40,022 nucleotides of DNA from a virus. Below the pieces are notes generated by a model. It searched no databases and was not told where the DNA came from. It saw only the letters and a list, made by a program, of their open reading frames with translations. Both the position numbers and the translations under genes were made by a program. How positions within the stretch are numbered: the first letter of the stretch is position 1; every line of letters begins with the position of its first letter. The stretch lies in the IMG/VR virus record IMGVR_UViG_3300028666_000062, positions 1 through 40,022 of that record. One strand, written 5' to 3'. Positions 2,352-39,717 of the stretch are shown here, piece by piece.

Positions 2352-4654
2352 GCGGTTGCGTCGCCTGTCCGCTGCACGAGAGTGCACTGACGGTGTGCGT
2401 GGCGGCGCGTGGGCCGGACGACGCGAAGGTGCTGATCGTCGGGCAGAATCCCGGCAAGGAAGAAGATTTGGACGGCCGCGCGTTCGTGGGGAAGTCCGGT
2501 CGCCTGTTGGATGCGATGCTCGCTGACGCGGGCTACGATCCCACACAAGTGCGCCTGACGAACGCCGTGCGATGCGTGACGCCGGACAACCGCGTCCCGT
2601 TCCCGTCGGAGTCGGCTGCCTGTTCGCACCACCTCAAGGCCGAGATACTCGCGCTCAAGCCCGACGTGATCATCGCGATGGGGGAAGTTGCGCTCAAGGC
2701 GCTCGTCGGCCCCATCGCGCTCGCGCGCGTACGGGGACAGGCACTGCCGCTCAAGGCCGCGTTCGAGTATGAGTGCGAAGTGTTCGCGACGTGGCACCCC
2801 GCGTTCGTCTTGCGTCGTCCGATGGCGCGCAGCACCGTCGTGAGTGATTTGCGCCGCGTGCGTGACCGTTTCAAAGCGCAGACCAAACAGGCGTGGAAGC
2901 CGTGGGTCCCCGGCGCGTCCCGTTTGTCCAAGCGCGAGCACCTCGCCTACGACATCGAGACGTACGGCGCGGACGGGAAGATTACGCCCGAGACGACGCA
3001 AGTGGCCGTGTGCGACGGCGTGCAGACGTTCGTGTCGATCCGGCACTTCGACGACATGCTCGACCAACTGACCTACGGCGCGCCGCTCATCGTCGGCCAC
3101 AACGCGTGGAAGTTCGACGACATCAAGACGGGCGTCGTGAGCGACTACGACACGATGGTCATGGCGTACCTCGACGACGAGACGCAGCCCTTAGGACTGG
3201 AGTCCCTGTGCGTCAAGTACTTTGGCGTGCGCGGATGGAAAGAAGATGCCGGGGCTCCGCTCGGGTCGCCCGTACTGGCCGCGTACAACGCGCGCGACGC
3301 TGCGCTGACGCACCGCCTGTTCCCGTTCCTGCGGGACAAGATCGGCGAACGCAGCATGAAGATCATCGACCACTGCATACGACCCGCGCACCGCGCCCTG
3401 ACGGCAGCGAGCGAACGCGGCGTGTGGATCGACCCCGACGCCGTCGAACAGGCACGCGTCGAGACGCAAAAGCTCCTGGACGAACGGCATGCCGCCGTGC
3501 TGCGTGAGGTCGAGAGGTGCGGGTTCCCGCCCCACTACTTCGACAAGGAACTCAAAACCAAAGTCAAGCACGTTCCGTTCAACCCGAACTCTAACGACCA
3601 CGTCGGCACGCTGCTGACCTGGCTCGGGTTCAAGCTCGGCACGACCAAAGAGGGCGACCCGAAGGTCGATAAGGAGACGCTCGTTTACATCGACCACCCA
3701 TTCGCCGTTGCCGAGCTAGCGTACCGGGAAGTCGCCAAGCGCATGAGTACCTACATCATCCCGTACGCGAAGATCGCGGCAACAGGTGACGGACGGGCCC
3801 ACCCGACCTTCAAGCTCACGGCGACCGACACCGGACGAAGTGCCGCGTCGGCACCCAACACGCAGAATCTGGATCGCAGTCTCAAGAAGATCAAGAACGC
3901 CCCGCCGGGCAGCGCGCTGCTCTCGGCCGACTATTCGTCCGTCGAGTTTCGCATGGGCGCGTTCATCGCGAACGAGCCGACCATCGTCAACAACTACACG
4001 GCGAACCACGAGTGGGACCCGCACACCTGGTTTGCCGCGCGCCTGTACGGCATGCCCGAGTTGGAAATCACGAAGGACTCCGAGGAGCGCCAAGAAGCAA
4101 AGTCGGCGAACTTCTCGCAACTCTACATGGGCAACGGCGCGACGATCCGCGATTACCTAGCACGCGAAATGGGTATGTTCGTCTCCGAGACGCGCGGGCA
4201 GGAAATCCACAACGCGTGGCACGCCGCATTCCCCGGCTGGAGCGCTTGGTACGACCGCGTGAAGGACGAGATGCTCGCCAACGGCTACGTCGAGGGGTTG
4301 ACCGGACAGCGCCGTCACTTCGGCGACCTGTCGCTGCTCAACCGCGTGCAGTTGCTTGAAGCGTGGCGGCAAGCCGTCAACTTCAAGGTCCAGAACTTCT
4401 GCGCGCACATCGCGTTCATCGCGCTCGGTGCGTGTCATGCTCACGGGTTGCCGGTCGTGGACTTCGTGCACGACGACATCAAGTTCGAGTTCGCGTCGCT
4501 CGAACAGGCGGAACAGGCAAAGCCGCTCATCCAGAAATGCATGGTCGACGAGCCGCTGCGCGTGCTGTGTGACGTGTTTGGCGTCGAGCCGACGGTGCCG
4601 CTCGGCATCGAGTTCTCACTGCAACAGTTGCCAGGCAGAAAACAGGCGGTTTAG
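2348..4654 (+). CDS. Uracil-DNA glycosylase (family 4-like) fused to family A DNA polymerase with 3'-5' exonuclease
   Basis: 768 residues from GTG 2348, which overlaps the previous stop. Residues 1-175 are a family 4-like UDG: C4 and C7, VGQNPG at 31-36 with EDLDGRAFVG following, C76 and C92 completing the Fe-S ligands, and TWHPAF at 148-153. Residues 198-330 are a DnaQ-like proofreading domain (DIE at 202-204, HNAWKFDD at 251-258, YNARD at 313-317). The polymerase follows: TDTGRSAASAPNTQN at 493-507, motif A DYSSVEFR at 528-535, motif B RQEAKSANFSQLYMG at 581-595, motif C VHDD at 707-710. Motif C is HDD rather than the usual HDE. The enzyme should replicate phage DNA; the glycosylase could remove uracil at or near the growing fork. 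Confidence 0.93.
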   Translation: MSGCVACPLHESALTVCVAARGPDDAKVLIVGQNPGKEEDLDGRAFVGKSGRLLDAMLADAGYDPTQVRLTNAVRCVTPDNRVPFPSESAACSHHLKAEILALKPDVIIAMGEVALKALVGPIALARVRGQALPLKAAFEYECEVFATWHPAFVLRRPMARSTVVSDLRRVRDRFKAQTKQAWKPWVPGASRLSKREHLAYDIETYGADGKITPETTQVAVCDGVQTFVSIRHFDDMLDQLTYGAPLIVGHNAWKFDDIKTGVVSDYDTMVMAYLDDETQPLGLESLCVKYFGVRGWKEDAGAPLGSPVLAAYNARDAALTHRLFPFLRDKIGERSMKIIDHCIRPAHRALTAASERGVWIDPDAVEQARVETQKLLDERHAAVLREVERCGFPPHYFDKELKTKVKHVPFNPNSNDHVGTLLTWLGFKLGTTKEGDPKVDKETLVYIDHPFAVAELAYREVAKRMSTYIIPYAKIAATGDGRAHPTFKLTATDTGRSAASAPNTQNLDRSLKKIKNAPPGSALLSADYSSVEFRMGAFIANEPTIVNNYTANHEWDPHTWFAARLYGMPELEITKDSEERQEAKSANFSQLYMGNGATIRDYLAREMGMFVSETRGQEIHNAWHAAFPGWSAWYDRVKDEMLANGYVEGLTGQRRHFGDLSLLNRVQLLEAWRQAVNFKVQNFCAHIAFIALGACHAHGLPVVDFVHDDIKFEFASLEQAEQAKPLIQKCMVDEPLRVLCDVFGVEPTVPLGIEFSLQQLPGRKQAV

Positions 4655-4663
4655 GATAAAGAC

Positions 4664-5602
4664 ATGAGCGACTTCCCTCTCGTCCTCTCCATGACGCAGT
4701 TCCAGCAGTACCGTCGGTGCCGCAAGAGCTTCGAGTACAGCGCCATTCGCGAGTACGATCCCGTTAAGACGAGCGAGGCCGCATCGGCGGGATCGTCGTT
4801 GCACAAGCTCCTGGAGCACGCCGCGCACAATGCAGGCAAGCTCCCCGCGTCGTGGGAGGACCCCGACATGCTCGCGGTCGCCAAGGAGTACCTCGCCAAG
4901 CGCCCGTTGCCCGAGGGCATCATCAGCGCCGAGAAAGGCTACTTCGCCGAAATCGCGCCGAACGTGTTCATTCGCGCGAGCTTCGACCTGGTCTATAAGG
5001 ACTGGCAGTTGGTGATTCGCGACTACAAGTCGTTCGCCAAGGCCCCGTCGCTCGACGCCGACTTCGACAACCAGGCGCAAGACTATCTGGTCGTCGCCGA
5101 AATGGCGCTCGGCACGACGGACGCGCGCTTCGAGTGGGAGTACATCCGTCGCGAACTCGGCCGCTTTCTGAGCGGCGGCAAGGGCAAGGAGGCCATCTGG
5201 ACGCCGTGGCCCGACGAGGACCGCTACATCCAACAGACGCTTGTCCTCTCCGACATCGAGCGTGAGACGATCAAGCGCGAACTCTACGACTGCGCGCTCG
5301 ACATTCAGCAGACCATCGAGAACGGACGGTTCTACCGTACCGGCCTCAAGAGCGGCCCGCACGGCTGCGAAGGCTGCTTTTATCGCGGCATTTGCCGGAC
5401 TGAGAAGCAGCACGGTGAACTTACCGAGCAGGACCTGGCGCTGCTCACGAACCCCTACGATCCGGCAGCGCGCCAGGATGCCGGAACGATCATCATGGAC
5501 CCGCGCGTCAAGCATTACGAGGCACGCGGGATCGCCACTTCGGATGCCGTGCTCGCCGTTTACGGCCCAACAGGCATCCAAAAAATAAAAGAAAGTGTGT
5601 AG
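4664..5602 (+). CDS. PD-(D/E)XK nuclease of the Cas4/RecB type with Fe-S cluster ligands
   Basis: 312 residues. The catalytic signature is complete: H47 (GSSLHKLL), D108 (FDLV), D120-Y-K122 (RDYKS) and a QxxxY-like NQAQDYL at 137-142. C19 with C235, C238 and C244 (CEGCFYRGIC) makes the four-Cys Fe-S site of Cas4/AddB-type nucleases. Such enzymes resect DNA ends and feed recombination; in phages they sit beside Sak4-type ATPases and SSBs, as here. GGATAAAG lies just upstream of the ATG. The 3' end is odd: it closes with AVYGPTG and an A-rich run (CCAAAAAATAAAAG) unlike the GC-rich surroundings, and the next gene reads on in the -1 frame. Confidence 0.85.
   Translation: MSDFPLVLSMTQFQQYRRCRKSFEYSAIREYDPVKTSEAASAGSSLHKLLEHAAHNAGKLPASWEDPDMLAVAKEYLAKRPLPEGIISAEKGYFAEIAPNVFIRASFDLVYKDWQLVIRDYKSFAKAPSLDADFDNQAQDYLVVAEMALGTTDARFEWEYIRRELGRFLSGGKGKEAIWTPWPDEDRYIQQTLVLSDIERETIKRELYDCALDIQQTIENGRFYRTGLKSGPHGCEGCFYRGICRTEKQHGELTEQDLALLTNPYDPAARQDAGTIIMDPRVKHYEARGIATSDAVLAVYGPTGIQKIKESV
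5579..5588 (+). repeat. 10-bp direct repeat, left copy (CAAAAAATAA)
   Basis: The same 10 bases recur at 6375-6384, 796 bases away. The two copies bracket the ATPase gene almost exactly, and both are AT-rich islands in GC-rich DNA. They could mark a past recombination that permuted the gene. Short A-runs also arise by chance. Confidence 0.5.
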
Positions 5603-5628: not shown

Positions 5629-6384
5629 TTGAACGGCACAGACTCCATTCAGTCCTACATCGACTCAGGTGCCGTCGTGAACCTGGAGTGTCCGACGTTC
5701 ACTGAGTTCGACAAGCACCGCCTGTCCTTGCAACAGACGGTGAAGCCGGGCGACTTCGTGTGCCTGGATACCGTAACTAAGATGCTCTCCACCACGCGCG
5801 CCGACCGGCAGGTGGGCAGCAACCCCGGCGAGCCCCTGTGGGACCCCGCCAAAGTCAACAAGTACTTCGGCGACAAGGAGTACCTGGCCGTCTACAACAT
5901 GGCGACGCAACTCGTCATGCGTGCGTTGCTCAACCTACGCGCACGCGGCGCGAAGATCATCGTGCTCGCGCACGAGGACGAAGTTACCGACGCGATGGCC
6001 GGGATGAAGATGGCTGGTCCTCAAGTCAATCCGGCGATGGTCGGAGAACTCATCGCGTCGTCGTCGGACGTGTTCCGTCTCGTCGCGCTCACCAATCCCG
6101 TCGTCAACGAGGCGGGCAAGGTGGTGTTCCCGGCCGACACGCGGGTGCTGTACCTGCGCCGGTCGGACTCGTATACGGCGAAGTTCCACGTCGCGCGCGA
6201 CCGTAGCGACAAGATTCCCAAAGCGCTCCCCAACCCGACGTTGCCCGCGTTGTGGGATACCCTCGGTAAAGTGTCGTCGTTCCTGACGGTGTACGCACAC
6301 CCGGGAGCGGGCAAAACGACGCTGATGGCAACGGCCACCGACAAACTACTGCCCACTAACACCAAACAAGAAAGCAAAAAATAA
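5629..6384 (+). CDS. RecA/Sak4-like ATPase with the Walker A loop at the C-terminus
   Basis: 251 residues if the TTG at 5629 is used. The frame is open further upstream and reads VAILYRLDADLNGTDS without any ATG or GTG, so the true start is unclear. Visible in order: a Walker B-like strand FVCLD at 43-47, the strand and sensor IIVLAHE at 110-116, and ARDRSDKIP at 189-197. All match the part of phage Sak4/AAA_24 ATPases that follows Walker A. The Walker A itself, HPGAGKTT at 224-231 preceded by strand SSFLTVYA, is near the C-terminus. In the known family that strand and loop start the protein. The gene lies between the nuclease and the SSB-like gene, the expected place for a single-strand annealing recombinase. 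Confidence 0.65.
   Translation: MNGTDSIQSYIDSGAVVNLECPTFTEFDKHRLSLQQTVKPGDFVCLDTVTKMLSTTRADRQVGSNPGEPLWDPAKVNKYFGDKEYLAVYNMATQLVMRALLNLRARGAKIIVLAHEDEVTDAMAGMKMAGPQVNPAMVGELIASSSDVFRLVALTNPVVNEAGKVVFPADTRVLYLRRSDSYTAKFHVARDRSDKIPKALPNPTLPALWDTLGKVSSFLTVYAHPGAGKTTLMATATDKLLPTNTKQESKK
6375..6384 (+). repeat. 10-bp direct repeat, right copy (CAAAAAATAA)
   Basis: Second copy of the 10 bases found at 5579-5588. It forms the last codons and the stop (TAA) of the ATPase gene, immediately before the SSB-like gene. Confidence 0.5.
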
Positions 6385-6386: not shown

Positions 6387-7046
6387 ATGGCAAAAGAAGA
6401 ACCCAAAGCCGTCCTTCTCTCCGACCTGTCCGCGTTCGGCGACCTGATTCCCCCGGGGATCGAGTTCGTCGCGAAGGCCACGAAGATCGACGCGAAGTCC
6501 ACCAAGGCCAACGAAGATGGGACCGGCGGCGGCAAGCCGTACCTGTCCATTTCGTTCTCGATTCTCAACGGTGACCACGAGGGGCTGGAGGCGACCAAAG
6601 CCTACTTCCTCTCCATCACCAAGTCCGGTAAGAACGGCAAGCTCTACGGCAAGGGCGTTTCCGAACTGTGCTCCGACTTGAACGCCATCGGCAAACCGTT
6701 GCCGAAGGATTACCCGTTCAAAATGGCACCGACGCTCGCCGACGTACAGGCGCTCTCGAAGCTCGTGGCCGAGCGCGTCAAGCCGTCGGTGACGCCGCGC
6801 ATCAAGTTCAAAACCGTCGCCGAGGGCGTGCAGAAGAAAGTCAAAGACGTCAACGGCAACGACGCGTGGGTCGACGACTTCAACGACGACGGCACGAAGA
6901 AAACGCGCACGAAGTACCTCATCATCGGTGCAGGTGCGGCGAGCGCGTTCGCCGAGCCGAAAATGCAGAACCCGCTCGGCGAAGGTCCCGACGAGGGTGC
7001 CACGTCTCCCGAGGTCGACGAGCAGGATGCCGTCAACCTTCTCTAA
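6387..7046 (+). CDS. Putative single-stranded DNA-binding protein
   Basis: 219 residues. The core (about 20-150) alternates beta strands and loops with a Gly-rich turn (GTGGGKPYL) and a later KTRTKYLIIG strand, as in the phage SSB-like families that accompany Sak4 ATPases. The C-terminus is acidic and ends in hydrophobic residues (DEQDAVNLL), the tail type SSBs use to recruit partners. The gene follows the ATPase by two bases and overlaps the VRR-NUC gene by 20. Function rests on context and tail, not on a recognised OB-fold motif. Confidence 0.55.
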   Translation: MAKEEPKAVLLSDLSAFGDLIPPGIEFVAKATKIDAKSTKANEDGTGGGKPYLSISFSILNGDHEGLEATKAYFLSITKSGKNGKLYGKGVSELCSDLNAIGKPLPKDYPFKMAPTLADVQALSKLVAERVKPSVTPRIKFKTVAEGVQKKVKDVNGNDAWVDDFNDDGTKKTRTKYLIIGAGAASAFAEPKMQNPLGEGPDEGATSPEVDEQDAVNLL

Positions 7047-10600: not shown

Positions 10601-11847
10601 TGGTTCCCGATGACTTGCCCGTTCGCGTCGTACAGCGGCGTGCCCGGCGCGTTCGGCTTACCCCACACCACGGCTCCCGATTTCGTCTTGCCCTGGATGT
10701 AACCGGACGGCGGCGTGAACGGCGTAGCGCTACGCACCGTCGGCTGCGGCTTGCCGGGGTTCTGTTGGTGCAGTGTCGTCGCCGTGCCAAGGTTGTTGGA
10801 AATCCATTCCTGCGCGACTTGCGTGTCCTGCTGTAAATCGCCGAGCGCTTTCGTGTCGGCGGCGATTTGGTCCTGAATCGCCTGCATCTGCGGATCGTTC
10901 GCGGGATCGTCGGAAACTTGCGACAGGCGGATATAGTTCTCGCGCAGGCTGACAATCTGCGCGTTCAAGTCGTGCGTCGAGCGCAGCGTGTCGGCAACGG
11001 CCGCGCGCACGCCCGAGTCGCCGCCGAGTCCCCGTTTTTGTGCCGCAACCATCGCGGCTTGCGCGCGGGTGTGCGCGGCGTCGGCATCTTTCGACCTGGA
11101 CTGTGCGTTTAGCAGCGCGGCCTGCGCGTCGGCAGTGTACTTGGCCGTCTTGGCCGCCTCGACGCGGTACGCTTCGGTGCCGGGGATTTCCATGTTCTTG
11201 AGGTGGTCGGCGCGTGCTTGTGCATACGCTCCCTCGTCGGCGTCCTTGAGTCCCATCGCCTTCGCGCGCGACATGGCGACTTCCATCTTGGCCGAGTACG
11301 ACTTCGGACCAGTTTGGAGCGACGGGGGAACGCCGGAGTACTCCGACAAGAATGCGTCGCGTGCTGGACCGGCATCGCGTTCGAGCGCGTCGCTGGTGAG
11401 CTTCTCCCGCGCAGCCGGGTCGAGTGAGTCCCACGGCGTCTTGAACACCGTCGTGTCAATGTGACCGTTCGCGTCGAGCGGAACAGGAACGCCGCGTTGC
11501 TGCGCGAGCTTGGTGAGTTGGTCGATCATCGTCGGGTCCTGGGCATAGTCCGGCCGTGCTTTAATCATCGAGCCGAGCCGCGTCCACTGCTGATCGAGCG
11601 AGTCGCGCTGCGCCTGTTCCATCTGCATGTCGCCCTGCTTAATGGCCTGTTTGCCCTGCTGGATTTGCAACTTCGCGAGTTGCGCCTGTTGCTGCTGCTC
11701 GGGAAACTGCCCGAGCGCCTGCGTGAGTTGCATGAGCGGGTTAGGTGCAGTGGCCTTCAGCAGCGCCGAGTAGTCCGGCGTCGCCTGCGGCGCACCAATG
11801 GGGGGGGTCTGAATCGGCGCACCGATGTTCGGGATGTTACCGGGCAT
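10597..11847 (-). CDS. Internal virion (ejection-type) protein, coiled-coil rich
   Basis: 416 residues from ATG 11847, chosen because the longer frame upstream lies inside the ATP-grasp gene. Long Gln- and Ala-rich helices (about 40-80, 190-300) alternate with Pro-rich linkers, and the last 60 residues are an extended Pro/Gly segment. There is no enzymatic motif. It lies between the ATP-grasp gene and the M15 protein, overlapping both ends, which fits a partner of the ejection apparatus. The call is by composition and position. Confidence 0.5.
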   Translation of the reverse strand: MPGNIPNIGAPIQTPPIGAPQATPDYSALLKATAPNPLMQLTQALGQFPEQQQQAQLAKLQIQQGKQAIKQGDMQMEQAQRDSLDQQWTRLGSMIKARPDYAQDPTMIDQLTKLAQQRGVPVPLDANGHIDTTVFKTPWDSLDPAAREKLTSDALERDAGPARDAFLSEYSGVPPSLQTGPKSYSAKMEVAMSRAKAMGLKDADEGAYAQARADHLKNMEIPGTEAYRVEAAKTAKYTADAQAALLNAQSRSKDADAAHTRAQAAMVAAQKRGLGGDSGVRAAVADTLRSTHDLNAQIVSLRENYIRLSQVSDDPANDPQMQAIQDQIAADTKALGDLQQDTQVAQEWISNNLGTATTLHQQNPGKPQPTVRSATPFTPPSGYIQGKTKSGAVVWGKPNAPGTPLYDANGQVIGNQ

Positions 11848-13186
11848 ACGCGTTCTCCTCGATTTCCAGGTACGGGGTCGTTCCCCATCCGAAGGACGCC
11901 ATCTTCTCGATGTCGGCCGTGATGATCTTCGCGCCGTCGGTGCGCGCCTGTAAGTAGGCCACGTCGATCTTCTTGATCGTCGCGGCAATCTGCTCGAAGC
12001 CCGCGTTTACTTGCCTGTTGCGCGAGACAGCCGTTCCAACATAGCCGAAGTCGTTGCCGACGGCGAGTCCCTCTTTGTCGTGCATCAAGCCCGCCATGAC
12101 GAAGTCGCCGTGCCACAACGACGTGACGCCGTTGACCGGAGAACCCATCGAAATCTTCGCGCCCTTGAGCGCGTCGTTCTCGGTTGGGTACGGTGGAACC
12201 GACACGCGAACGCCGTGATAGCCCTGCGACACGTCAACCAAGTGGTCGATTTCCCCGCCTGTTGCAATTTGGTACAGCACGCTGGAGAGACTCGTGAACG
12301 CGAGTTGACTGGTGAGTTCGCTGTCGATACCGAGACGCGGCGTCCATTCCAAGAACCACGCGCCTTGTTTGTTGACGACGGCGTTGATGTCGTACAGGCC
12401 CGGCGGCGCGTTATTTTTCCGCATGCCGAGCGCGAGGTCGTCCCACTTCAAGGCGCTCGCGATCTTCGGCGTCGCTTCCAAATAGAACCACACCGTATTG
12501 AGCGAGCAGCCGGTGGCCGGTCCCATGTCGCCGTCCATGAACTTCTTTTCTTCCAGCGTGCCTTCGTAGGGCCCGGTCCACGACATGCCGTTCCACCACC
12601 GCGCCGTCGAGAGTGCCACGCCGGGGACGCGCTCTTGGACGATGCACTTCACGCTATCGCCGAATCGCGGGATGACGAGACGTTCGCATGACGAGATGAC
12701 TTTCTCCGCATCGTCGACGAGCGTCACCGAACACCCCAAGTCGCGGTCGGGTTTCCACGCCCACCCGCCGTCTCCGACTTCTTGCTGCTTCGTGGACTTC
12801 ATGTAGGCGATGGCTGCCGTCACGGAGGAGAACGATTTTGTGGGCGGTACGAGAATGCCGTTCGTCTCTGCAAACTTTTGACCGAACGCGCGATCCATTT
12901 CCAAACGGTCCATGAACGAACCACCGCCGACGACAAGGCGGCCCTGTGCGCGCAGTCGGTCGGGAATGTGGCCGTTGTTGGTGCAATCGAAAAACCAAAT
13001 GGTCTGATGATCGGCCATTCCCCACGCGAACCATTCCTCACGGGAGGTTGCGACCGGCACGAGTCCGTCTCCGATGCGCTTTGCAGACGGCTTGGCACGG
13101 TAGACGAGAACAGAAGTACCCTCATCACACAAACGGCGAGCCCATGCAATCGACATGCCCTCCTCGCTCCAGAACGCGACGCGCAT
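11837..13186 (-). CDS. ATP-grasp enzyme resembling PurD (phosphoribosylamine-glycine ligase)
   Basis: 449 residues. The N-terminal 100 form a Rossmann-like pre-ATP-grasp domain ending in GGSFMDRLEMDRAF, where PurD proteins hand the substrate over. The ATP-binding half has WAWKPDRDLG at 142-151, CIVQERVPGVALS at 181-193 and DGDMGPATGC at 218-227, equivalent to the PurD Gly-rich turn. The metal site reads FLEWTPRLG at 278-286: the Glu and Arg are kept, but the Asn of the usual E-x-N-x-R is Thr. ATP-grasp enzymes join a carboxylate to an amine through an acyl phosphate. The substrate here is unknown. It sits inside the virion gene block, away from any nucleotide genes. Confidence 0.75.
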   Translation of the reverse strand: MRVAFWSEEGMSIAWARRLCDEGTSVLVYRAKPSAKRIGDGLVPVATSREEWFAWGMADHQTIWFFDCTNNGHIPDRLRAQGRLVVGGGSFMDRLEMDRAFGQKFAETNGILVPPTKSFSSVTAAIAYMKSTKQQEVGDGGWAWKPDRDLGCSVTLVDDAEKVISSCERLVIPRFGDSVKCIVQERVPGVALSTARWWNGMSWTGPYEGTLEEKKFMDGDMGPATGCSLNTVWFYLEATPKIASALKWDDLALGMRKNNAPPGLYDINAVVNKQGAWFLEWTPRLGIDSELTSQLAFTSLSSVLYQIATGGEIDHLVDVSQGYHGVRVSVPPYPTENDALKGAKISMGSPVNGVTSLWHGDFVMAGLMHDKEGLAVGNDFGYVGTAVSRNRQVNAGFEQIAATIKKIDVAYLQARTDGAKIITADIEKMASFGWGTTPYLEIEENAYAR

Positions 13187-24171: not shown

Positions 24172-25119
24172 TTACGCCCCTTCCGATCCGACGAGTCCGC
24201 GCCCTTCGACCGCGCCCCACTGGAGTCGAACTTCGACTTCGTGGTTGAGGTTTTCGGTGTTCGGGTCGACCCACGACCGCTGCTCGTCCCACTTCTTGTT
24301 GACGAAACAGGTGTGCGCGTCGGTGCCGAGTTCACCCTTGCCGGACGCGACCCACCACGGGAACGGGCCCTGCGGCGCGCTCGTGATGTACTCGACGGCG
24401 TGCGGCTTGACGCTGCCCGCGACCGAGTTGACCCGGTTCTCGTTGCTCTCCGGGTAGTAGTACGATCCGAGCACTTCGACCACTTGCTGGTGGTAGCCGA
24501 TGGGGTAGTAGATGTCCTCGGGCATACGCGAGGTCGTCAGACCGCGGTCGTCCGGCATGTTGCCCATCAGCACGAACACCTGGTTGAGCGTCTCGACCGT
24601 CAGCGCCGCCGAACCGATGAGGTTCGAGTAGGTGATGCCGGGAGCGCCCGCGCAGGGGTGCGACTGCGAGCAGAGCGGCTGGCCGTCGGCCAGGTTGTAC
24701 CCGCCGGACGCCGCCGACAGGAACGACAGGTTGAGCACGTTCCACACCAGGAACTCGATGGTCTGATCCTTCGAGTACCGCAGCAGGTTCGGCAGTTTGG
24801 GGATGATCTTCTTGGCGTCCTCGCGGCCCATCTCTTTGGTGACGATGTACCGGAGCGCGTAGGTGAAGAACGGGTACATCGTCATAAAGCCTTCCTTGGA
24901 TGAATCCAAGGTGGCTGCTTGGCCCTGCGTCTTGAGGGCCAGGGTGCCGAAGCCGACGAGGCTCAACGCCTGCCAAAAACTCCGGTCCATGTCGATGTCG
25001 AACTGGTTGAAGAAAATCGGCCACCGCTGCGGCTTCGTCGGCGTCGAGTTCGAGTAGATGTCCTTGACGATTCGCGTTGCCGCGCGGAAATAGGTGCCTG
25101 TGTTAATCGCGGTAGCCAC
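24172..25119 (-). CDS. Putative major capsid protein
   Basis: 315 residues from GTG 25119, three bases after the frameshifted decoration gene. Phrases such as RWPIFFNQFDIDMDRSFWQ, LSLVGFGTLALKTQG and GPFPWWVASGKG give the aromatic, loop-rich character of HK97-fold capsid proteins, and the size fits. The order portal, small gene, scaffold, decoration, capsid is the standard head order. The dispersed AACAGGCR octamer is absent from this gene and its neighbours (23.9-26.7 kb). Confidence 0.6.
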   Translation of the reverse strand: MATAINTGTYFRAATRIVKDIYSNSTPTKPQRWPIFFNQFDIDMDRSFWQALSLVGFGTLALKTQGQAATLDSSKEGFMTMYPFFTYALRYIVTKEMGREDAKKIIPKLPNLLRYSKDQTIEFLVWNVLNLSFLSAASGGYNLADGQPLCSQSHPCAGAPGITYSNLIGSAALTVETLNQVFVLMGNMPDDRGLTTSRMPEDIYYPIGYHQQVVEVLGSYYYPESNENRVNSVAGSVKPHAVEYITSAPQGPFPWWVASGKGELGTDAHTCFVNKKWDEQRSWVDPNTENLNHEVEVRLQWGAVEGRGLVGSEGA

Positions 25120-27382: not shown

Positions 27383-27652
27383 TCAGTCGTCGTCCTCGTC
27401 TTGATAAAACGCGAGTTCCTGCCGCAAAGTGGGCGGGAGTTCTCGTCCTGCCTTATCATAAACCCGCTTGATCCCTTCTTTCAAGGCCCGAACGGCGATC
27501 TGGTACCCCCGGCGCTCGTGCTCCGGCATGTCCACGTTCTCGATGAGCATGCGCGACATGCGGCGGATGTCTCGAACCATCTCGCCACGGAGCAGGCCCC
27601 AGGCCGACGAATCGAGGGACTCGGCGAACGTCGCCGTTCGAGTATCCGTCAT
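27383..27652 (-). CDS. 89-aa hypothetical protein after the portal gene
   Basis: ATG at 27652 overlaps the portal stop (ATGA). The peptide is helical and charged (RGEMVRDIRRMSRMLIENVD, EHERRGYQIAVRALKEGI) with an acidic end (QDEDDD). No family is recognised. A longer frame upstream lies inside the portal gene. Confidence 0.5.
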   Translation of the reverse strand: MTDTRTATFAESLDSSAWGLLRGEMVRDIRRMSRMLIENVDMPEHERRGYQIAVRALKEGIKRVYDKAGRELPPTLRQELAFYQDEDDD

Positions 27653-29658
27653 CCGGTGAGGCCGCGCGACTGCGGAACGACATGCAGCGCGGGCTTGCCG
27701 CCTCCCCCACCTCCGCCGGACGGCGCGCCGCCGCCCTTGCCCGACATGTGCGAGAGAATCTGCATGAACGCGTCGGTCTGTTGCTGCTGCGCTGCCTGTT
27801 TCTCCATGTCCTGTTCTTGTTGCATCGCCTCGTCCAGCGTGCCGATGAAGCTCGTCACGTCCGGCACGTCGTACGTCTCGATGTTGAGGCGCGCGAGGTT
27901 CCAAAGGCGCGTGAGCTTGCCCTGGAATAACTGCGACATCGGCGTCTCCAGGAGCAACTGCGTGAGCATGCCGATGTCCTGACGACGGCCCTCTTTGTCG
28001 AGCGCGCCGCCAAGGCCGGAAATGCCGAGCGTGTAGTCGAGCCCGAGCACTTCCTTCGGCAGCACCACGCGCTTCGCACCCTGTTGCGTCGTCTCGATGG
28101 TTTCGATCTGATCCTTGCCGTAGCGCAGGTACAGGCCGTGCTTGTACTTCAGGATGCGGAGCATCCACCGACGCACGCGCGTCGCGACCAGGTTCGCCTG
28201 CATCGCCTGCAACTGCGCCTGTAACTGTGCCGCTCGCGCGCTGCGCTGCTGTGTACCGCCAACAGGCACGCCGGTCGCGGCGGCTTGCGGCGATCCGTAC
28301 GCGCGGTCGATGCGCGCCATGAGCTTATCTTCTTCTTGAAACGACTCTTGTGGGATGCGCGGCGTCGCCAGGAACCCGTAGTCGTTCGGCGTGCTGACCT
28401 CGACTTCGACATCCGGTTCCCACCGTCGGTCGTTGTCACGGAAGCGCACGTTCGGCGTGCGGTAGCGCGGCGGCTTGACGCCCAGGTCGAGCAGGTTGAG
28501 GCGCGAGTTGACCTGCGTGTCCACTTCTTCTTGCGTCGAGCGTCCGATTTCCGGCATCGCGAAGCCGTAGAACACACCGACGCGCGGGTACATCGTCAAC
28601 TCGAAGAACGGACGGCCGCCGTAGTAGTCGAACGGCACCGCGCCCGGGCACAGACCGGAACGGTAATGCACCCAAATGATGTTTTCCTCGGGGACGCCGT
28701 CGTCGTCGAGGTCGACCAGGTTCGTGTGAATGCGGTACATTTCAACGGGACCGCGGTTCATCACCATGCCCTCGGGCGCGGCGACGGACGTATCGACCAC
28801 CGAAATCATACCGGAAATGGTGTACTGAGAGTTTCCTTGCGGGTCACTTGCCTGTTCGCCTTGCGCGTCGTAGGTGTACGCGAGGATTTCTTCGGCCGTG
28901 TCGGGGTCGAAGATTTTGGCGTTGACCTTCTTACGCATGTCGTCCTCAGTCATCCACACTTTGACGGCGAAGCCGTCGGCGGAGTTGGCCGTGCGCGCGA
29001 AGTTCGGGAACAGGATGCAACTCTTGAGGTCGCGCGGAACCTCGCGCGGCGCGTCGTAGTCGATGAAGGTGGCGATCTTCTGCACCTTCTTCGTCTCGGG
29101 GTTGCCGTCGGGACCGACGATCTGCTGGCCCATCGCGTCCATGACGGGCTCGTCCTCAACCAGTAGCTCCTCGTGCGTCGTCAGGTCGTACAGGCACTCC
29201 ATGATGACGGTGCCGTCGCGAGCGCCCATGAGAATGGCTTCTTCGTAGGCGTCGAAGCAGTCGTTGTTGTCCCACTCTGAGTTGAAGAACTGCTCGACCG
29301 CGTGCGCGTACTGACCGGAAATGGGGTCGTTGCCGCGGCAGGTGTACGGGCGCGGCAACAGGCACGAGCCAATCGTGCGCGAGCAGAACTCCTGGAACGC
29401 GGAGAACACCGTCGGCGTCGTGATGTGCGCCGCGCCCTCCCACGGCACGGCGAGCGGACTGGAACGCATTTCGAAGATGGCGTTCCAAATGTCCAGGTTG
29501 TCGTCGAGCGCGCCGCGATTGCCGAGGTTCACGTCGACGAGAATCTTCATCGTCTGCCCGAGCGCGAGACGCTGCGCGTCGTCCAACTTCGGGATCGGCT
29601 TGGAAATCGGGGTGTCGGGCGAGAGCGTCTGCGTCGATTCTAGTTTCTTGCGTGACAT
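27649..29658 (-). CDS. Portal protein
   Basis: 669 residues from ATG 29658 (TAATG junction). Features match podovirus-type portals: an N-terminal helix with NLDIWNAIFEMRSSP, a wing rich in aromatic and acidic residues, IIWVHYRSGLCPGAVPFDY, the FFELTMYPRVGVFYGF segment, then a long helical part (RSARAAQLQAQLQAMQANL) and a Gln-rich C-terminus with a Gly tail. The portal is the dodecameric ring through which terminase pumps DNA. It is the largest gene of the head module and precedes the scaffold. The start is fixed by the overlap; the frame upstream is shadow. Confidence 0.75.
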   Translation of the reverse strand: MSRKKLESTQTLSPDTPISKPIPKLDDAQRLALGQTMKILVDVNLGNRGALDDNLDIWNAIFEMRSSPLAVPWEGAAHITTPTVFSAFQEFCSRTIGSCLLPRPYTCRGNDPISGQYAHAVEQFFNSEWDNNDCFDAYEEAILMGARDGTVIMECLYDLTTHEELLVEDEPVMDAMGQQIVGPDGNPETKKVQKIATFIDYDAPREVPRDLKSCILFPNFARTANSADGFAVKVWMTEDDMRKKVNAKIFDPDTAEEILAYTYDAQGEQASDPQGNSQYTISGMISVVDTSVAAPEGMVMNRGPVEMYRIHTNLVDLDDDGVPEENIIWVHYRSGLCPGAVPFDYYGGRPFFELTMYPRVGVFYGFAMPEIGRSTQEEVDTQVNSRLNLLDLGVKPPRYRTPNVRFRDNDRRWEPDVEVEVSTPNDYGFLATPRIPQESFQEEDKLMARIDRAYGSPQAAATGVPVGGTQQRSARAAQLQAQLQAMQANLVATRVRRWMLRILKYKHGLYLRYGKDQIETIETTQQGAKRVVLPKEVLGLDYTLGISGLGGALDKEGRRQDIGMLTQLLLETPMSQLFQGKLTRLWNLARLNIETYDVPDVTSFIGTLDEAMQQEQDMEKQAAQQQQTDAFMQILSHMSGKGGGAPSGGGGGGGKPALHVVPQSRGLTG

Positions 29659-30020
29659 TATGGACGCAGCCCCACTGTGTGAGCGATTTGGAGGAACAGC
29701 AGTCCGACGGCACTCGTTGCAATCGTGCCAAGGAACCCGAGTCCCCACTTGACGGCACGCTTGATGACCACCTGCTGCCGCTTGTTCTGCTCGATGAGGC
29801 CGGGCTCGAACTCCCCGTCCTCGTTCGTGCTGCCCCGCAGCCAAATGAGAATCTGCTTCAGGGTTTTCGACGATTCCGACACCTGGTCGGTAAGCGCACG
29901 GAAGTTCTCGGACACGCTTTTAAGCTGACTTGCCAGCAAGCTTAGTTCCTCCTTCGTGGCGTACGCGTCCCCCGCCCGAGAATGCGTGTACTTTGCTCCA
30001 TCGTCATCACCGCTTCCCAT
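29658..30020 (-). CDS. Coiled-coil protein with one C-terminal membrane helix
   Basis: 120 residues. Residues 22-60 form a heptad-like helix (ELSLLASQLKSVSENFRAL, QVSESSKTLKQILIWL), followed by a charged stretch and a membrane helix at 90-112 (WGLGFLGTIATSAVGLLFL). This build is seen in phage membrane-anchored accessory proteins. No lysis motif is seen. It lies between an exported lectin-like gene and the portal. Confidence 0.5.
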   Translation of the reverse strand: MGSGDDDGAKYTHSRAGDAYATKEELSLLASQLKSVSENFRALTDQVSESSKTLKQILIWLRGSTNEDGEFEPGLIEQNKRQQVVIKRAVKWGLGFLGTIATSAVGLLFLQIAHTVGLRP

Positions 30021-34488: not shown

Positions 34489-34725
34489 TTACTTTTTCTT
34501 CTTACCGCCGACGCCGACGCGCGTTTTCACGTCGTAGCCCGATTTGGTGGCGACGCCGTTCTTGTGGCCGCCGCCCTTGGAGCCCTTGGCCGAAGCCTTG
34601 AGCATGTCGGGGAGGGTCTGGATCGCCTCCGGGGCGCTCGTCTTACCACCGGCCAGGCGGTTCGAGAGCGTGGTGATGTTCGGCGACTCGACCGAACGCT
34701 TGGAGGCGGAGTCTTTCTTCATCAT
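34489..34725 (-). CDS. 78-aa Lys-rich basic protein
   Basis: ATG at 34725 with AAGGAG nine bases upstream, the best ribosome site near here. The peptide starts MMKKDSASKRSVESP, has LPDMLKASAKGSKGGGHK and ends VGVGGKKKK. It shares the tetra-Lys end with its neighbour. The function is unknown. Confidence 0.5.
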   Translation of the reverse strand: MMKKDSASKRSVESPNITTLSNRLAGGKTSAPEAIQTLPDMLKASAKGSKGGGHKNGVATKSGYDVKTRVGVGGKKKK

Positions 34726-34759
34726 GGGAACGCTCCTTGGAAGGGTAGAGGCTGGAGGC

Positions 34760-34765
34760 ATCATA
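34760..34765 (-). promoter_or_regulatory. Candidate extended -10 promoter (TGCTATGAT)
   Basis: On the minus strand the terminase stop is followed by GACGTGCTATGATGCC. TATGAT with TG at -15 is a good extended -10 element, 35 bases before the next ATG. No convincing -35 is seen. Confidence 0.35.
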
Positions 34766-34773
34766 GCACGTCC

Positions 34774-36444
34774 TCACCCCGCCTTCCAGACCGCGCCGTA
34801 GCGCCCTGCCATCGAGCGGGCCCCCTCCGACTCCGCGTCCCGTCGCTTCTGGAACGCGGCGTAGTCGGCGTCCATCGGATTGTAGTCGTAGGTCACCTGC
34901 TGTTCCTCGGGAACGCGGGTGAGCCGGAGGTGCTGCACGAGCGAGTCGAGTTCGTCCTCGTGGTCGAGGGTCGTCCCCGGCGAGAAACGGTCGAACTGCG
35001 TCACGAAGCGCGGATGAACAGGCAGCCCATCGGGTCCCGCGCGCAGGATCGTCTTGCCGTTCTCCCACCGCGGCTGGAGCAGCACGATTCGCTCGTTCTT
35101 GGGGACGTTGCCTGTTGAATACTCGACGAAGTTGACGCGCAGCCCGCGGCGCACGCACTCGTCCTTGAGCATGTCGAGCCAGAGGCCGGAGCCGAACGCG
35201 TCCTCGACCGACACCACCCACGGCCGGTAAATCAGGATCAGGCGGCACATGCGGTCGATGACCACGGTCGGAGGAGCCTTGAGCGCCAAGGCTTCGAGCA
35301 CCCACCACACGTCGGAGAAGTCGGTGCCGACGACGGTGATCCCGTGCGAGTCGCTCTTACGCGTCTGTCTGCGACCGGCGGGGTCCCACGCGATGCTCGT
35401 CTCTACATCGAGTTGCGCCTTCGTATCGGCCAGTCGAATGAACCCGCCGAGCGGCCTCGCGTTGTCAGTGTAGAAGTCGAACCGGCGCAGACGCATCGCG
35501 TCCATGAGGAATGTCTTGTCCTCGTCGGCCATCGGCTTGAGCAGGTACTGCGCGGCGAACTTGCGCGAGCCAATCGTCTCCAGCGTTTCTTCGAGGAACT
35601 CGTGCGACTGACGGCGGGGGAAGTACAGGCCGGTCGGGCCGTCGTAGCAGCCGCGAATGAGCTTCTTGAACTTCGGCGGCAGGCCGCGACGTACCCGATC
35701 TTCGTCAGCGCGGATGCGTCGCATGTACGCATCGTCGACGTGCCACGTCGTGAACACGATGATGAGCACGCCGCCGGGGTTGAGAATCGGCAGCAAGTCA
35801 GAAATGTGCTCGTGGACGCGCTCGCGCCCTTCGGCCGTCTGCACGTTGGTGTCCGTCACCAAGTCGTCGGCGATGATGACATCGAAGTGCTGCGAGTTCA
35901 TCGAGCGGTCAACGCCCGCCGTCGCGATACTGGCCTCGCGCGACATGTTGTCGGTACGCGGCGTGATGATGATTTCTTCGTCGTTCCAGGTGTCGCTGCG
36001 GAACTCGGGCTTCCAGTCCTGGTGGGCGAGGACTTCGTCGTTCTCGATCTTGCGGCGCACGGCGCGCAGACGCGCCTTGGCAACGCCGTGACGGAAGCCG
36101 TCGAGGAGAATCTTGGCGTTCGGGTTCTTTTCTAAGACGGCAACAGGCGTCGCTTCCGATACACCAGTCGTCTTAAAGGTTCCACGGGGAACACCAAGCA
36201 TGACGAGCGTCTGTGTGTCGCCGGAAAACGAGCAGTCGCCGAGCGACTCTTGGACGAACCCGGCCATTTCGACGTGCGGCTGTTGCTCGACATCCATGCG
36301 CCACTTGTCGCGCCAAAAGCGATACAGCCACCCCTCGGAGTATCCCCCAAAGGGTGGCTGCTCGTATTCGACCAGGGGTGTGGTTCCGGTCGAATCCTTC
36401 AAGGCCGCGATGGACCCGAACAGGGCGTCTACGTCGTCGTGCAT
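34774..36444 (-). CDS. Terminase large subunit
   Basis: 556 residues. ATPase half: Walker A GVPRGTFKTT at 84-93, Walker B FDVIIADD at 187-194, coupling motif FTTWH at 231-235. Nuclease half, RNase H-like: AWDPAGRR at 352-359, VSVEDAFGSG at 411-420 and HEDELDSLV near 504. The enzyme cuts and pumps concatemeric DNA through the portal. No small terminase subunit is obvious next to it; the 73-aa or 170-aa proteins upstream are possible candidates by position only. ATG 36444 overlaps the end of the GroES-like gene by 16 bases. Confidence 0.9.
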   Translation of the reverse strand: MHDDVDALFGSIAALKDSTGTTPLVEYEQPPFGGYSEGWLYRFWRDKWRMDVEQQPHVEMAGFVQESLGDCSFSGDTQTLVMLGVPRGTFKTTGVSEATPVAVLEKNPNAKILLDGFRHGVAKARLRAVRRKIENDEVLAHQDWKPEFRSDTWNDEEIIITPRTDNMSREASIATAGVDRSMNSQHFDVIIADDLVTDTNVQTAEGRERVHEHISDLLPILNPGGVLIIVFTTWHVDDAYMRRIRADEDRVRRGLPPKFKKLIRGCYDGPTGLYFPRRQSHEFLEETLETIGSRKFAAQYLLKPMADEDKTFLMDAMRLRRFDFYTDNARPLGGFIRLADTKAQLDVETSIAWDPAGRRQTRKSDSHGITVVGTDFSDVWWVLEALALKAPPTVVIDRMCRLILIYRPWVVSVEDAFGSGLWLDMLKDECVRRGLRVNFVEYSTGNVPKNERIVLLQPRWENGKTILRAGPDGLPVHPRFVTQFDRFSPGTTLDHEDELDSLVQHLRLTRVPEEQQVTYDYNPMDADYAAFQKRRDAESEGARSMAGRYGAVWKAG

Positions 36445-36719
36445 ACCTCGACGGGGTCATGCACGATGAGCACGTCGGACTCCTTTGCGAGCAAGTACGT
36501 CAGCCCTTCCTCGGTGAACTCGGTCCCGAGGTACTGCGAGAGCGTCACGCGGTCGCCGACACGCACTTCTTGAACGAGCCGCCCGGCGGCAACGACCTTG
36601 CCTGTTGACGGCTTGTCCGTCACGGTGTCCGGCATGAGCACGCCGTTGACTTCCGTCTCGGGTGCGTCGCGTAGGATCAACAGGTTCGCGAACAGCGGCC
36701 GCATCTTGGATGGGATCAT
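36429..36719 (-). CDS. GroES-like co-chaperonin (second copy, next to terminase)
   Basis: 96 residues from ATG 36719 (ATGA overlap). It has the full cpn10 pattern: MRPLFANLLILRD, a mobile-loop region (ETEVNGVLMPD at 21-31), GKVVAAGR at 40-47, VRVGDRVTLSQYLGTEF at 52-68 and YLLAKESDVLIV at 75-86. Phage co-chaperonins such as T4 gp31 replace GroES on host GroEL to fold capsid protein. A second GroES-like gene is at 38573-38914, and no GroEL is in the window. Confidence 0.8.
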   Translation of the reverse strand: MIPSKMRPLFANLLILRDAPETEVNGVLMPDTVTDKPSTGKVVAAGRLVQEVRVGDRVTLSQYLGTEFTEEGLTYLLAKESDVLIVHDPVEVCTTT

Positions 36720-36937
36720 TCCGTGCTGCCTTCGACCATCGAGTTCACCCACCGCAGCAACAGGCGGTCGCACTGCTGCACGATGGCGTTCGACGACGCC
36801 GTCGACGCGGGACCGTCCATCATCTTCTCGCGGTTCATGCTGATCGTGGCGATGAGTTGAACGGTCTGGAACTCCTCCATGCGCGTCGCACGGTCGGCGG
36901 CTTCCTTCATCATCGCCATCTTCTGTGGGTCAAGCAT
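36716..36937 (-). CDS. 73-aa helical protein
   Basis: ATG at 36937. The peptide is helical with amphipathic stretches (PQKMAMMKEAADRATRMEE) and no Cys except one at 56. It lies two genes before the terminase, so a small terminase subunit is possible, but no DNA-binding motif is visible. Confidence 0.45.
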   Translation of the reverse strand: MLDPQKMAMMKEAADRATRMEEFQTVQLIATISMNREKMMDGPASTASSNAIVQQCDRLLLRWVNSMVEGSTE

Positions 36938-37847: not shown

Positions 37848-37853
37848 CCCGTC

Positions 37854-38024
37854 TTACCTGTGCACGACGGGGCCGAACGTCTGCCATCCCAGCAGCCCAA
37901 CGAGGACGAAGAACAGCAGGGAACCGCCCCATGCGTTGGGGGCGGCCTTGGCCGTGTACGCGCCCCATCCCGTAAACACGAGCGCGACGACGTACAGGAC
38001 CCAGAACAGTAACCCGATGGTCAT
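37854..38024 (-). CDS. 56-aa two-helix membrane protein
   Basis: ATG at 38024 with a strong AGGAGG eight bases before it. Helix one is LLFWVLYVVALVFTGWG, helix two LLFFVLVGLLGW. It sits between amidase and holin-like genes, so a lysis role (second holin or antiholin) is likely. Confidence 0.55.
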   Translation of the reverse strand: MTIGLLFWVLYVVALVFTGWGAYTAKAAPNAWGGSLLFFVLVGLLGWQTFGPVVHR

Positions 38025-38033
38025 GATGACCTC

Positions 38034-38576
38034 CTAGAAGTGACCCGCCGTGGATGGCGGCGTCTTATGAAGTGCTTCCCAAATCCCGGACTTCAAACCC
38101 GGAATGTGGGCGTACAGGTCGTCGCCGGGGCACGCCGTCGCGACCGACGGGTCGTCGAACAGGCACGCCACGTCCCGGTGCCCGATGGTGCGAACGATGT
38201 TCGGGCACTTCTGGTGCACGAATACGGAGAGGTCCAAGAGCGCATCGAGTTGCGCCGCGGTCGGCTCCCCGGTGAACCCCGCGTCGTCGGACTGGAAGTC
38301 GCCGATGAGGCAGATGTCGACCGACTTGCTGTTATCGTCCTGCGCCGCTGCCGGGACCGCGGTCATCGGCCGCCCCTGGTAAATCTGGCCGTCCGGCGTG
38401 ATGACGAAGTGGTACCCGATCCCCGACCACCCTTGGCTGCGATGCTGCGCGTCGATCTGCTCCGGCGTCTCGGAGAGCGCACCCGCGCTGTGATGGATGA
38501 TGAGGTCGGTTACCGTGTGCAAATCGCGCGTCAGCATGTCGCCGAACGGTGGGTAGTTGGGACTGTTGATGGTCAT
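38034..38576 (-). CDS. N-acetylmuramoyl-L-alanine amidase (endolysin)
   Basis: 180 residues. Amidase_2/PGRP fold: LIIHHSAG with H28 as zinc ligand, GIGYHFVITPDGQIYQGRP at 52-70, IGHRDV with H133, and ACPGD with C149. These enzymes cut the bond between muramic acid and the stem peptide and release phage progeny. No signal peptide is seen, so it depends on a holin; two candidates lie directly downstream. ATG 38576 overlaps the upstream stop (ATGA). Confidence 0.9.
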   Translation of the reverse strand: MTINSPNYPPFGDMLTRDLHTVTDLIIHHSAGALSETPEQIDAQHRSQGWSGIGYHFVITPDGQIYQGRPMTAVPAAAQDDNSKSVDICLIGDFQSDDAGFTGEPTAAQLDALLDLSVFVHQKCPNIVRTIGHRDVACLFDDPSVATACPGDDLYAHIPGLKSGIWEALHKTPPSTAGHF

Positions 38577-38914
38577 GCGGCCTCCATTGGAACGAGCGGC
38601 GGGTCGATGGCGAGTTGAATCGCCTCGATGGGCAACGCCACCACGTCGTAGTGATGATTCGGGAACTTCTTGACCGGCGGTTCTTGCTCGGCGACCACTT
38701 CCCCCTGGTGCCGTTTGACCACGAGCATCACGCCCGGCTTCAGGCACGCGGGCGCGCCGTCACCAACGGCCACGACCCATCCCCAAATGCGCGGGTGCAT
38801 CGGGTTGCGCTCCAGCCACAGTCCGCCACTCGTCGTGCCGCGCGGGCTGTACGGCCGGAACAAAATGTGATCGTTCCGAAACCGCATGCCCTCGAAACTC
38901 GTGTAGGTGAACAT
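38573..38914 (-). CDS. GroES-like co-chaperonin-type protein (first copy)
   Basis: 113 residues from ATG 38914. Pattern of cpn10: RNDHILFRPYSPRGTTSGG at 13-31 covers the first strand and the mobile loop, WGWVVAVGDGAP at 44-55 is the GKVVAVG strand, LKPGVMLVVKRHQGE at 58-72 is the GDRVLFxKYxGxE segment, and YDVVALPIEAI closes it. It is more divergent than the copy near the terminase and has a Pro-rich insertion. It may assist folding of another phage protein. Confidence 0.65.
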   Translation of the reverse strand: MFTYTSFEGMRFRNDHILFRPYSPRGTTSGGLWLERNPMHPRIWGWVVAVGDGAPACLKPGVMLVVKRHQGEVVAEQEPPVKKFPNHHYDVVALPIEAIQLAIDPPLVPMEAA

Positions 38915-38916
38915 AC

Positions 38917-39717
38917 TCACGCTTCGAGCACCTCGTCGGCAGAGGGGAACGCGCCGGGTGGACGCGGCGTGGCGAGCGCAGGCTCGACGTGCACGGCGCT
39001 GATGACGCGCATCGCACGAATGTCCGACGAGAACTTCTCGATGCCCCACGCGAGCAACGCAGCAACGACCGTCGTCGGTGGCACGCCCGCCAAAATGGCG
39101 AGACGCTGCACGACGGCAGCGATGGGCTGCGGCGCGGTCGCCGTGAGCTTAAAGGTCTGCGACTTGGGCGCGTCGTCGATGGCCGCGAGCGCCGAGCGCA
39201 TCCGCGCGATACGCGTCTTACGATGCTTCACGTCGCCGAACAGGCGCTCGTGTAACAGGCGTATTTCACGCACGTCCAACCGCGCCGCCCGCACCGGATC
39301 GCCCAAGAGTGCCGTCACGAAGTCCAGCCCGGCGGGGCGCAGTGCATGCCGCTGCACGCGCAAGTTGCGCGCGACGAGCTTCTTATCTTGTTGCTTGTGC
39401 CACTCCATGTGGGACGCGGCGCGAATCTTCCCCGACGAGACGCGCTCGCACCCCGGATAGGTGCACGGATACGGATTGGTGTCGCACCGCATGCACCGGC
39501 ATCCGAACGCATGCTGCTTGGGGTCGAGACGCCGCAGTTTCTTCTCGTCGTCCTCCCCCATCGCGATGTAGTGCCGCTGCAACAGGCGCATCTCGGGCGT
39601 CGCGCTCTTGGGCAACTTGCTCATCGCCCGCCGCGTCGCCGCACCGATGTCCTCCGGCGGCCCGGGGTCCTCATACACCTCTCCGTTGGAGAGAATGTGC
39701 ACGCGACGATCTTCCAT
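38917..39717 (-). CDS. Hypothetical protein with a Cys/His zinc-binding segment
   Basis: 266 residues from ATG 39717 (TGATG junction). Residues 71-100 hold CRCMRCDTNPYPCTYPGC, a Ser/Lys-rich turn and HMEWH, a C2-C2 and H-H arrangement that could bind one or two zinc ions. The rest is helical and basic (RRHRK and RLLHERL phrases) with a hydrophobic helix near 220 (PTTVVAALLAWG). A nucleic-acid-binding role is possible. No known family is recognised. Confidence 0.5.
   Translation of the reverse strand: MEDRRVHILSNGEVYEDPGPPEDIGAATRRAMSKLPKSATPEMRLLQRHYIAMGEDDEKKLRRLDPKQHAFGCRCMRCDTNPYPCTYPGCERVSSGKIRAASHMEWHKQQDKKLVARNLRVQRHALRPAGLDFVTALLGDPVRAARLDVREIRLLHERLFGDVKHRKTRIARMRSALAAIDDAPKSQTFKLTATAPQPIAAVVQRLAILAGVPPTTVVAALLAWGIEKFSSDIRAMRVISAVHVEPALATPRPPGAFPSADEVLEA

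Follow-up and report, generated by a model that had tools for sequence, protein, structure and literature searches.

A short DNA word, AACAGGCR, is dispersed through the virus record IMGVR_UViG_3300028666_000062, a linear sequence of 40,022 bases and 63% G+C that was analysed at full length and is referred to here as the window. Its abundance is best explained if the word serves throughout the genome as a recognition site, under selection that is strong in this phage lineage and close to saturation. The heptamer AACAGGC occurs 63 times in the window, 27 times on the + strand and 36 times on the − strand, where base composition predicts 4.9 copies; an initial annotation of the sequence had given about 63 copies against about five expected, and the first and last sites lie at 2502 and 39581. 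As that annotation had also stated, every copy but the one at 11645 continues with a purine (62 of 63): the extended forms are AACAGGCA with 39 copies, AACAGGCG with 23, AACAGGCC with the single copy at 11645, and AACAGGCT with none. AACAGGCR reaches a density of 1.55 per kb, about 11-fold over what the proteins and codon usage predict, and AACAGGCA/TGCCTGTT is the most enriched 8-mer of the window by a wide margin (39 versus 0.9 expected). The initial annotation had pointed out that dozens of equally enriched 8-mers would speak for ordinary codon bias; no other dispersed 8-mer in the window comes close. One unrelated 8-mer alone, ACCTCTCC, ranked high in the first enrichment list; it belongs to a tandem pentapeptide-repeat gene at 1-270 and is not dispersed. 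Literature searches found no paper that names AACAGGCR as a motif, the lone text match being a fungal mitochondrial paper.

The word is sharply bounded. Bases outside its eight positions carry at most 0.17 bit each, and words that differ from it at one position occur near expectation. Spacing is roughly random (coefficient of variation 0.90), 61 of the 62 words lie inside genes, and all gene modules contain them. A gene that fuses a uracil-DNA-glycosylase domain to a family A DNA polymerase holds 8, while the major capsid gene, where no position allows the word, holds none.

Synonymous codon choice

Evidence that selection acts on the DNA rather than on the proteins came first from shuffles in which codons were re-dealt among positions encoding the same amino acid. 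In 300 such shuffles AACAGGCR occurred 5.4 times on average and at most 12 times, compared with 62 copies in genes; when neighbouring bases were kept as well, the mean was 6.1 and the maximum 13. With a corrected gene list and the same codon-preserving null, AACAGGCA was found 38 times versus 1.1 expected and AACAGGCG 22 times versus 4.0, while AACAGGCC (1 versus 2.2) and AACAGGCT (0 versus 0.8) showed no excess. For control words with a permuted core, the median ratio of observed to expected counts was 1.06. Codon or composition bias of the ordinary kind, protein repeats or chance have nothing in their favour except slightly raised numbers of the dipeptides Thr-Gly (105 versus 84 expected) and Gln-Ala (74 versus 62.5). 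This explanation, which the shuffles, the control words and the allowed-position counts below refute and which also fails on relatives that encode the same proteins and lack the word, is almost certainly wrong, as the initial annotation had argued from the occurrence of the word in all three phases.

The encoded amino acids permit the word at 150 positions, of which 61 are filled, versus 5.5 expected from codon usage. By frame, there are 21 words in (K/E/Q)-Gln-Ala, 13-15 in Thr-Gly, 10 in (Cys/Arg)-Leu-(Phe/Leu), 12 in Pro-Val, and 1-2 in each of the other two, which matches the earlier description of the frames. Two frames that can be entered easily are filled at 21 of 26 positions for (K/E/Q)-Gln-Ala and 10 of 13 for (Cys/Arg)-Leu-(Phe/Leu), so that the two most permissive frames approach saturation. 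Frames that need rare codons are filled at 15 of 68 and 12 of 37 positions; the codons concerned, ACA, CCT and GTT, are indeed uncommon, making up 7%, 6% and 14% of the codons for their amino acids. The word is created mainly by synonymous codon choice, across all gene classes.

Strand use and polarity

The word is distributed between the strands in proportion to opportunity, with 38 of 96 allowed positions filled on the coding strand and 23 of 54 on the non-coding strand. A runs test for orientation gave p=0.08. A raw Kuiper test suggested polarity (p=0.009), which vanished when the test was conditioned on allowed positions (p=0.24); the apparent polarity reflects the distribution of positions at which the proteins permit the word. 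AACAGGCR thus acts as a double-stranded, strand-symmetric, exact DNA word. Strand proportionality, lack of polarity and genic location argue for a function in double-stranded DNA, and against roles in RNA, as an operator, or in guiding a directional motor.

Two known kinds of site can be set against these data. The initial annotation had raised a segregation signal as one option, but words of the FtsK-orienting polar sequence (KOPS) type show a strand bias along replichores, and the window has no polarity relative to allowed positions. The stoperators of cluster A mycobacteriophages are also numerous asymmetric sites dispersed through a phage genome. They are about 13 bases long and mainly intergenic, tolerate mismatches and bind the phage repressor, whereas AACAGGCR is exact and genic, its near matches are not enriched as those of an operator would be, and no repressor was found in the window.

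Related phages

Additional evidence came from relatives of the phage. The closest found, a record of 54.7 kb (G001), has most of its genes in a collinear arrangement with those of the window (capsid 81%, Sak4 67%, portal 62% and terminase 59% identical), and a second record, G002, is collinear less closely. Each holds 4 copies of the word in its whole record, and neither has a comparable word of its own. At word sites that align to G001, amino-acid identity is 50%, versus 51% over all aligned residues, and 8 of the 38 aligned sites encode identical residues by different codons. Because codons differ where residues do not, and because identity at the sites equals the genome-wide value, the selective pressure is on the DNA. 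The alignment with G001 likewise indicates that the word was gained, or was lost in G001, after the two lineages split, through selection at the DNA level and without unusual cost to the proteins.

Further family members were found by alignment of the capsid protein, which served as the yardstick of relatedness between viruses; the word was not used as a query. Three of them (G1000, G1001 and G1003) have no dispersed word, and a candidate word in a fourth (G1004), AGCAGCA, proved to be one local repeat. A fifth, the 26.6-kb record G999, is a distant member (polymerase 28% identical), identified independently of the word, in which AACAGGT (28 versus 4.2 expected), AACAGTT (18 versus 2.8), AACAGGC (26 versus 6.6) and AACAGTC (8 versus 2.6) are all enriched. 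Taken together as AACAGKY, they fill 80 of 277 allowed positions versus 16.6 expected. By our estimate, a random motif of this specificity would overlap the window word about once in a thousand. Of the 21 window sites that can be aligned, only one falls on a site in G999, compared with 0.67 expected. Because the words overlap and stand at different positions, recognition recurs without inheritance of the sites: what the two phages share is the recognition. A contig that seemed to offer an independent second case, L262, represents the virus of G999 itself (99.98% over 4,150 bases). A terminase scan found no relative and a portal scan only a distant one (27%), and the first 25 kb of the window had no DNA-level match among 50,697 phage records. 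New here are the near-saturation of allowed positions, the absence of the word from the closest relative, and the overlapping word in a distant one.

The overlap with G999, together with the absence of the word from G001, G002, G1000, G1001 and G1003, points to a reader linked to the host. A host-encoded reader is the simplest account because two distant branches share an overlapping word that intermediate and closer relatives lack, and we infer that the word is read by a DNA-processing enzyme that the hosts of the window phage and of G999 have and those of the other relatives lack. The reader could instead be a protein encoded by the phage or its family, one that binds or condenses DNA or takes part in replication and that changes its specificity from relative to relative; copies evenly distributed on both strands would then serve phage replication or DNA handling. 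Two members of one syntenic family share the core AACAG, the sites run through all gene modules, and no sampled host is dense in the word, all of which suits such a protein. This alternative is nevertheless unlikely, given that it would require repeated loss or exchange, with G001 and several intermediates lacking the word despite the similarity of their genes, and that no gene was found only in the word-bearing members, whose contigs are incomplete.

The same comparison bears on priming. Bacterial DnaG-type primases use the trinucleotide CTG, which is contained in the complement of the word, (Y)GCCTGTT, and AACAGGCR could mark preferred primase start sites on both strands. The per-strand spacing of 1.5 and 1.1 kb would match Okazaki fragments, no polarity is seen, and the part in common with G999 reads CTGTT on the complement. 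However, known primases recognise trinucleotides, which every genome has in abundance; we know of no phage that enriches a full octamer for priming; and relatives with the same replication genes do without the word. A role as primase sites is therefore quite improbable.

Search for the host genome

About 1,360 prokaryote genomes in five phyla, a sample that leaves Actinomycetota and many other groups outside it, were searched for a host by word density: Verrucomicrobiota (145), Pseudomonadota (398), Acidobacteriota (199), Planctomycetota (119), Chloroflexota (121) and Alphaproteobacteria (385, in part overlapping with the Pseudomonadota). Every word was counted in the Verrucomicrobiota and Pseudomonadota, and the maximum was about 0.26 words per kb, versus 1.55 in the phage. 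Elsewhere paired words were searched for, which would miss mild enrichment, and the Acidobacteriota, Planctomycetota, Chloroflexota and Alphaproteobacteria gave only scattered pairs or palindromic repeats, with no dispersed dense signal. No genome among those sampled is dense in the word, and the true host is probably not one of them.

This result bears on the idea that the phage merely follows a signature of its host, one maintained by DNA uptake bias or biased repair and of no direct benefit to the phage. Like the uptake sequences of Neisseriaceae and Pasteurellaceae, AACAGGCR is non-palindromic, mostly genic and present on both strands at about one per kb, and like the highly iterated palindrome 1 (HIP1, GCGATCGC) of cyanobacteria it is an exact octamer repeated through coding DNA by synonymous choice. 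Uptake sequences, however, are 9-12 bases long and are features of the chromosomes of competent hosts; here an uptake-type density is reached in a phage, and no such competent host was found among the sampled genomes. HIP1 also resides in host genomes and is palindromic, while AACAGGCR is asymmetric and not self-complementary. A host of this kind should hold thousands of copies, and none of the sampled genomes does, nor is there a dense genome among the matches listed in the collection scan. We regard this origin as very unlikely.

Other candidates from these scans were rejected. Mixed-orientation triplets of the word in the species genome collection were, among the matches listed, mostly intergenic palindromic repeats of Microcoleus and Tychonema genomes and of an Aminicenantes genome; in viral contigs they amounted to two chance matches. 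Clustered words (three on the + strand within 30 bases) in the viral collection were found only in coding repeats of the tail-fibre type. Several cyanobacterial genomes (L126-L245; Microcoleus, Tychonema and others), one Aminicenantes genome (G017) and one anammox-type genome are rich in short dispersed palindromes, AACAGGCAAGATGCCTGTT for example; G016 belongs to this set of genomes. The palindromes appear unrelated to the phage word.

Avoidance of restriction-type words

The window is depleted of many short words under the codon-preserving null: AATT (1 versus 41 expected), AGCTG (5 versus 71), CCCAG (12 versus 90), GGCGCC (0 versus 36), GCCGGC (0 versus 36), GGTCTC (0 versus 18) and GAAGAC (2 versus 28). 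Of 48 palindromes that could be tested against base composition, 19 stay below 15% of the expected number. In G001 the avoided words are in part different ones (CCCGGG 1/47, GAGACG 0/34, GCCAGA 0/30).

A genome under such strong restriction-type pressure might carry AACAGGCR as a modification or self-marking site, which a host or phage methyltransferase or another modifying enzyme marks or binds so that protection from defence scales with the number of sites. Exact, asymmetric recognition of 7-8 bases with no tolerated mismatch is typical of modification enzymes. On the other hand, restriction-modification normally makes phages lose sites rather than gain them, and AACAGGCR, far from being avoided, is eleven-fold over-represented; moreover, no methyltransferase was found among the window proteins scanned. 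A modification site is thus quite unlikely.

A possible Chi-like site

The reading favoured here, and held tentatively, is that AACAGGCR works like Chi, as a protective or recombination site read by the end-resection nuclease of the host; it is not claimed to be a Chi site. Among host enzymes for which an exact asymmetric octamer brings a reward, RecBCD/AddAB is the best known. Under the proposed mechanism, restriction or replication would leave broken ends in the phage DNA, and a host nuclease of the RecBCD/AddAB type, for which the word would be a Chi-like brake, would stop degrading at the next copy and pass the end to recombination, so that every additional copy would protect the DNA nearby. 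If the genome is cut frequently, such stop signs would be profitable, and both the exonuclease/Sak4 module and the avoidance of restriction-type words fit an often-cut genome. Equal strand use without polarity is as expected if breaks fall anywhere.

There are parallels with Chi in lambdoid phages. Chi is likewise a short, asymmetric, exact word over-represented in coding DNA. Lambdoid phages that carry their own recombinase and no RecBCD inhibitor have Chi enriched about 2.5-fold, while those without a recombinase have 0.2 Chi per kb, as does the host (PMC3784561). By the genes scanned, the window phage may belong to the class with a recombinase and without a RecBCD inhibitor. The end-resection and annealing genes noted in the initial annotation are present as a PDDEXK exonuclease and a Sak4-like protein (Table 1), and no match to Gam or Abc2 was found among the window proteins scanned, in a contig that is probably incomplete and for inhibitors that are small and variable.

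Several observations weigh against a Chi-like role. The word is about 7 times denser than Chi in E. coli or its phages (PMC3784561), and about 11-fold rather than about 2.5-fold enriched. In sequence it is unlike GCTGGTGG and the other known, G-rich Chi sites (PMC8022716). Chi-type polarity is absent, although polarity is a feature of host chromosomes and may not apply to a phage. Chi-like protection should bring diminishing returns, yet the easy positions are nearly saturated, and no sampled host is enriched. Finally, the window may lack an inhibitor or a phage-encoded reader that the complete genome carries. Of the Chi-type interpretation in the initial annotation, the DNA-level word stands, and a Chi-like role is possible; polarity, likeness to known Chi sites and a dense host among those sampled were not found.

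A broader form of this reading comes close to an even chance: that in one phage family a short exact word occupies almost all positions where the proteins easily permit it, being read by a host or family-specific enzyme and changing between hosts (AACAGGCR, AACAGKY), either as a self tag in a host dialect or as Chi-like protection at unprecedented density. If the word serves Chi-like protection or self-recognition, phage sequence would by itself reveal which word an uncharacterised host enzyme reads, and this in a clade without a known Chi. The overlap with the G999 word suggests host dialects, from which Chi-like sites and the hosts of phages might be predicted from phage genomes. The phage also offers a measurable case of selection on a DNA word near the limit set by the proteins.

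Features of the window

The predicted genes are those of a podovirus-type phage and include an SU10-like portal and adaptor protein, a terminase, an amidase and the replication and recombination genes of Table 1. The window is probably incomplete, because genes are cut at both ends and because G001 continues with more replication genes beyond the polymerase. The first 9 kb of G001 (L246), upstream of the polymerase and absent from the window, appear from their translations, read without a profile search, to encode two SNF2-like helicases, a PAPS-reductase-like protein and a primase-polymerase/AAA protein.

Table 1. Positions of the word and of selected genes in the window
Feature	Position	Strand	Evidence
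Dispersed word AACAGGCR, 62 copies, and one AACAGGCC	2501..39588	both	exact counts, synonymous-shuffle tests
AACAGGC, starts	2886, 3447, 4503, 4512, 4641, 5569, 7471, 15767, 17113, 19035, 19581, 20084, 21836, 22097, 28261, 29357, 31154, 33500, 34118, 35017, 36142, 36759, 37411, 38158, 39239, 39254, 39581	+	
GCCTGTT, starts (word on −)	2502, 2618, 3315, 7958, 9063, 9201, 9262, 10023, 11612, 11645 (C exception), 11684, 12013, 12257, 13490, 13856, 14228, 14518, 15759, 16121, 17419, 17719, 17804, 18636, 21022, 22560, 23860, 26700, 26860, 27794, 28850, 31007, 31327, 31966, 35110, 36600, 36976	−	
Uracil-DNA-glycosylase domain fused to family A DNA polymerase	2183..4654	+	PF03167 8.7e-31, PF00476 1.3e-48, PHROG 17 2.3e-92
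PDDEXK (RecB/Cas4-like) exonuclease, end-resection gene	4664..5602	+	PF12705 2.7e-15; PHROG 69 exonuclease 2.1e-12
Sak4-like single-stranded DNA annealing ATPase	5629..6384	+	PHROG 124 2e-18 (model positions 104-257 only); AAA_24 1.6e-7
Conserved protein 3' of the Sak4-like gene	6387..7046	+	homologues in G001 (48%) and G002 (31%)
Major capsid protein	24172..25119	−	homology: 81% identical in G001, 47-57% in other family members; matches in named phages annotated capsid/head
Portal protein, SU10-like (podovirus)	27649..29844	−	PF23899 1.9e-7; PHROG 332
Terminase large subunit	34774..36444	−	PHROG 38 4.9e-60

Relative to the family profile, the Sak4-like protein is missing the N-terminal part, and its Walker A motif lies close to the C-terminus, the P-loop being matched separately at residues 209-243. 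The same domain order is found in G001 (50228-51016) and G002 (34540-35298), and because this order is conserved in two relatives the protein looks like a circularly permuted member of the Sak4 family. The conserved protein that follows it matched no family in Pfam and PHROG searches; its position and sequence suggest that it is possibly a single-strand binding protein.

At the left end, a pentapeptide-repeat protein with a DUF5758 domain (2-634, +) contains in-frame 15-base tandem repeats, is truncated by the contig end and has a homologue in G002 (52%). G002 itself carries a repeat around GCGGACCTTTCGGGTGCG (L249-L251), with ACCTTTCG in 17 copies and a longer form in about 10, which is a candidate dispersed regulatory element. 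Another protein at the left end of the window (813-1871, +), of unassigned function, has an HExxH metalloprotease-like motif (HELVH). Among the structural genes, a protein with a weak ATP-grasp match (11837-13186, −) is one of the best conserved in the family, at 40-58% in all relatives that have the region. A GroES-like co-chaperonin gene (Cpn10, 9.8e-14; 36444-36773, −) adjoins the terminase gene.

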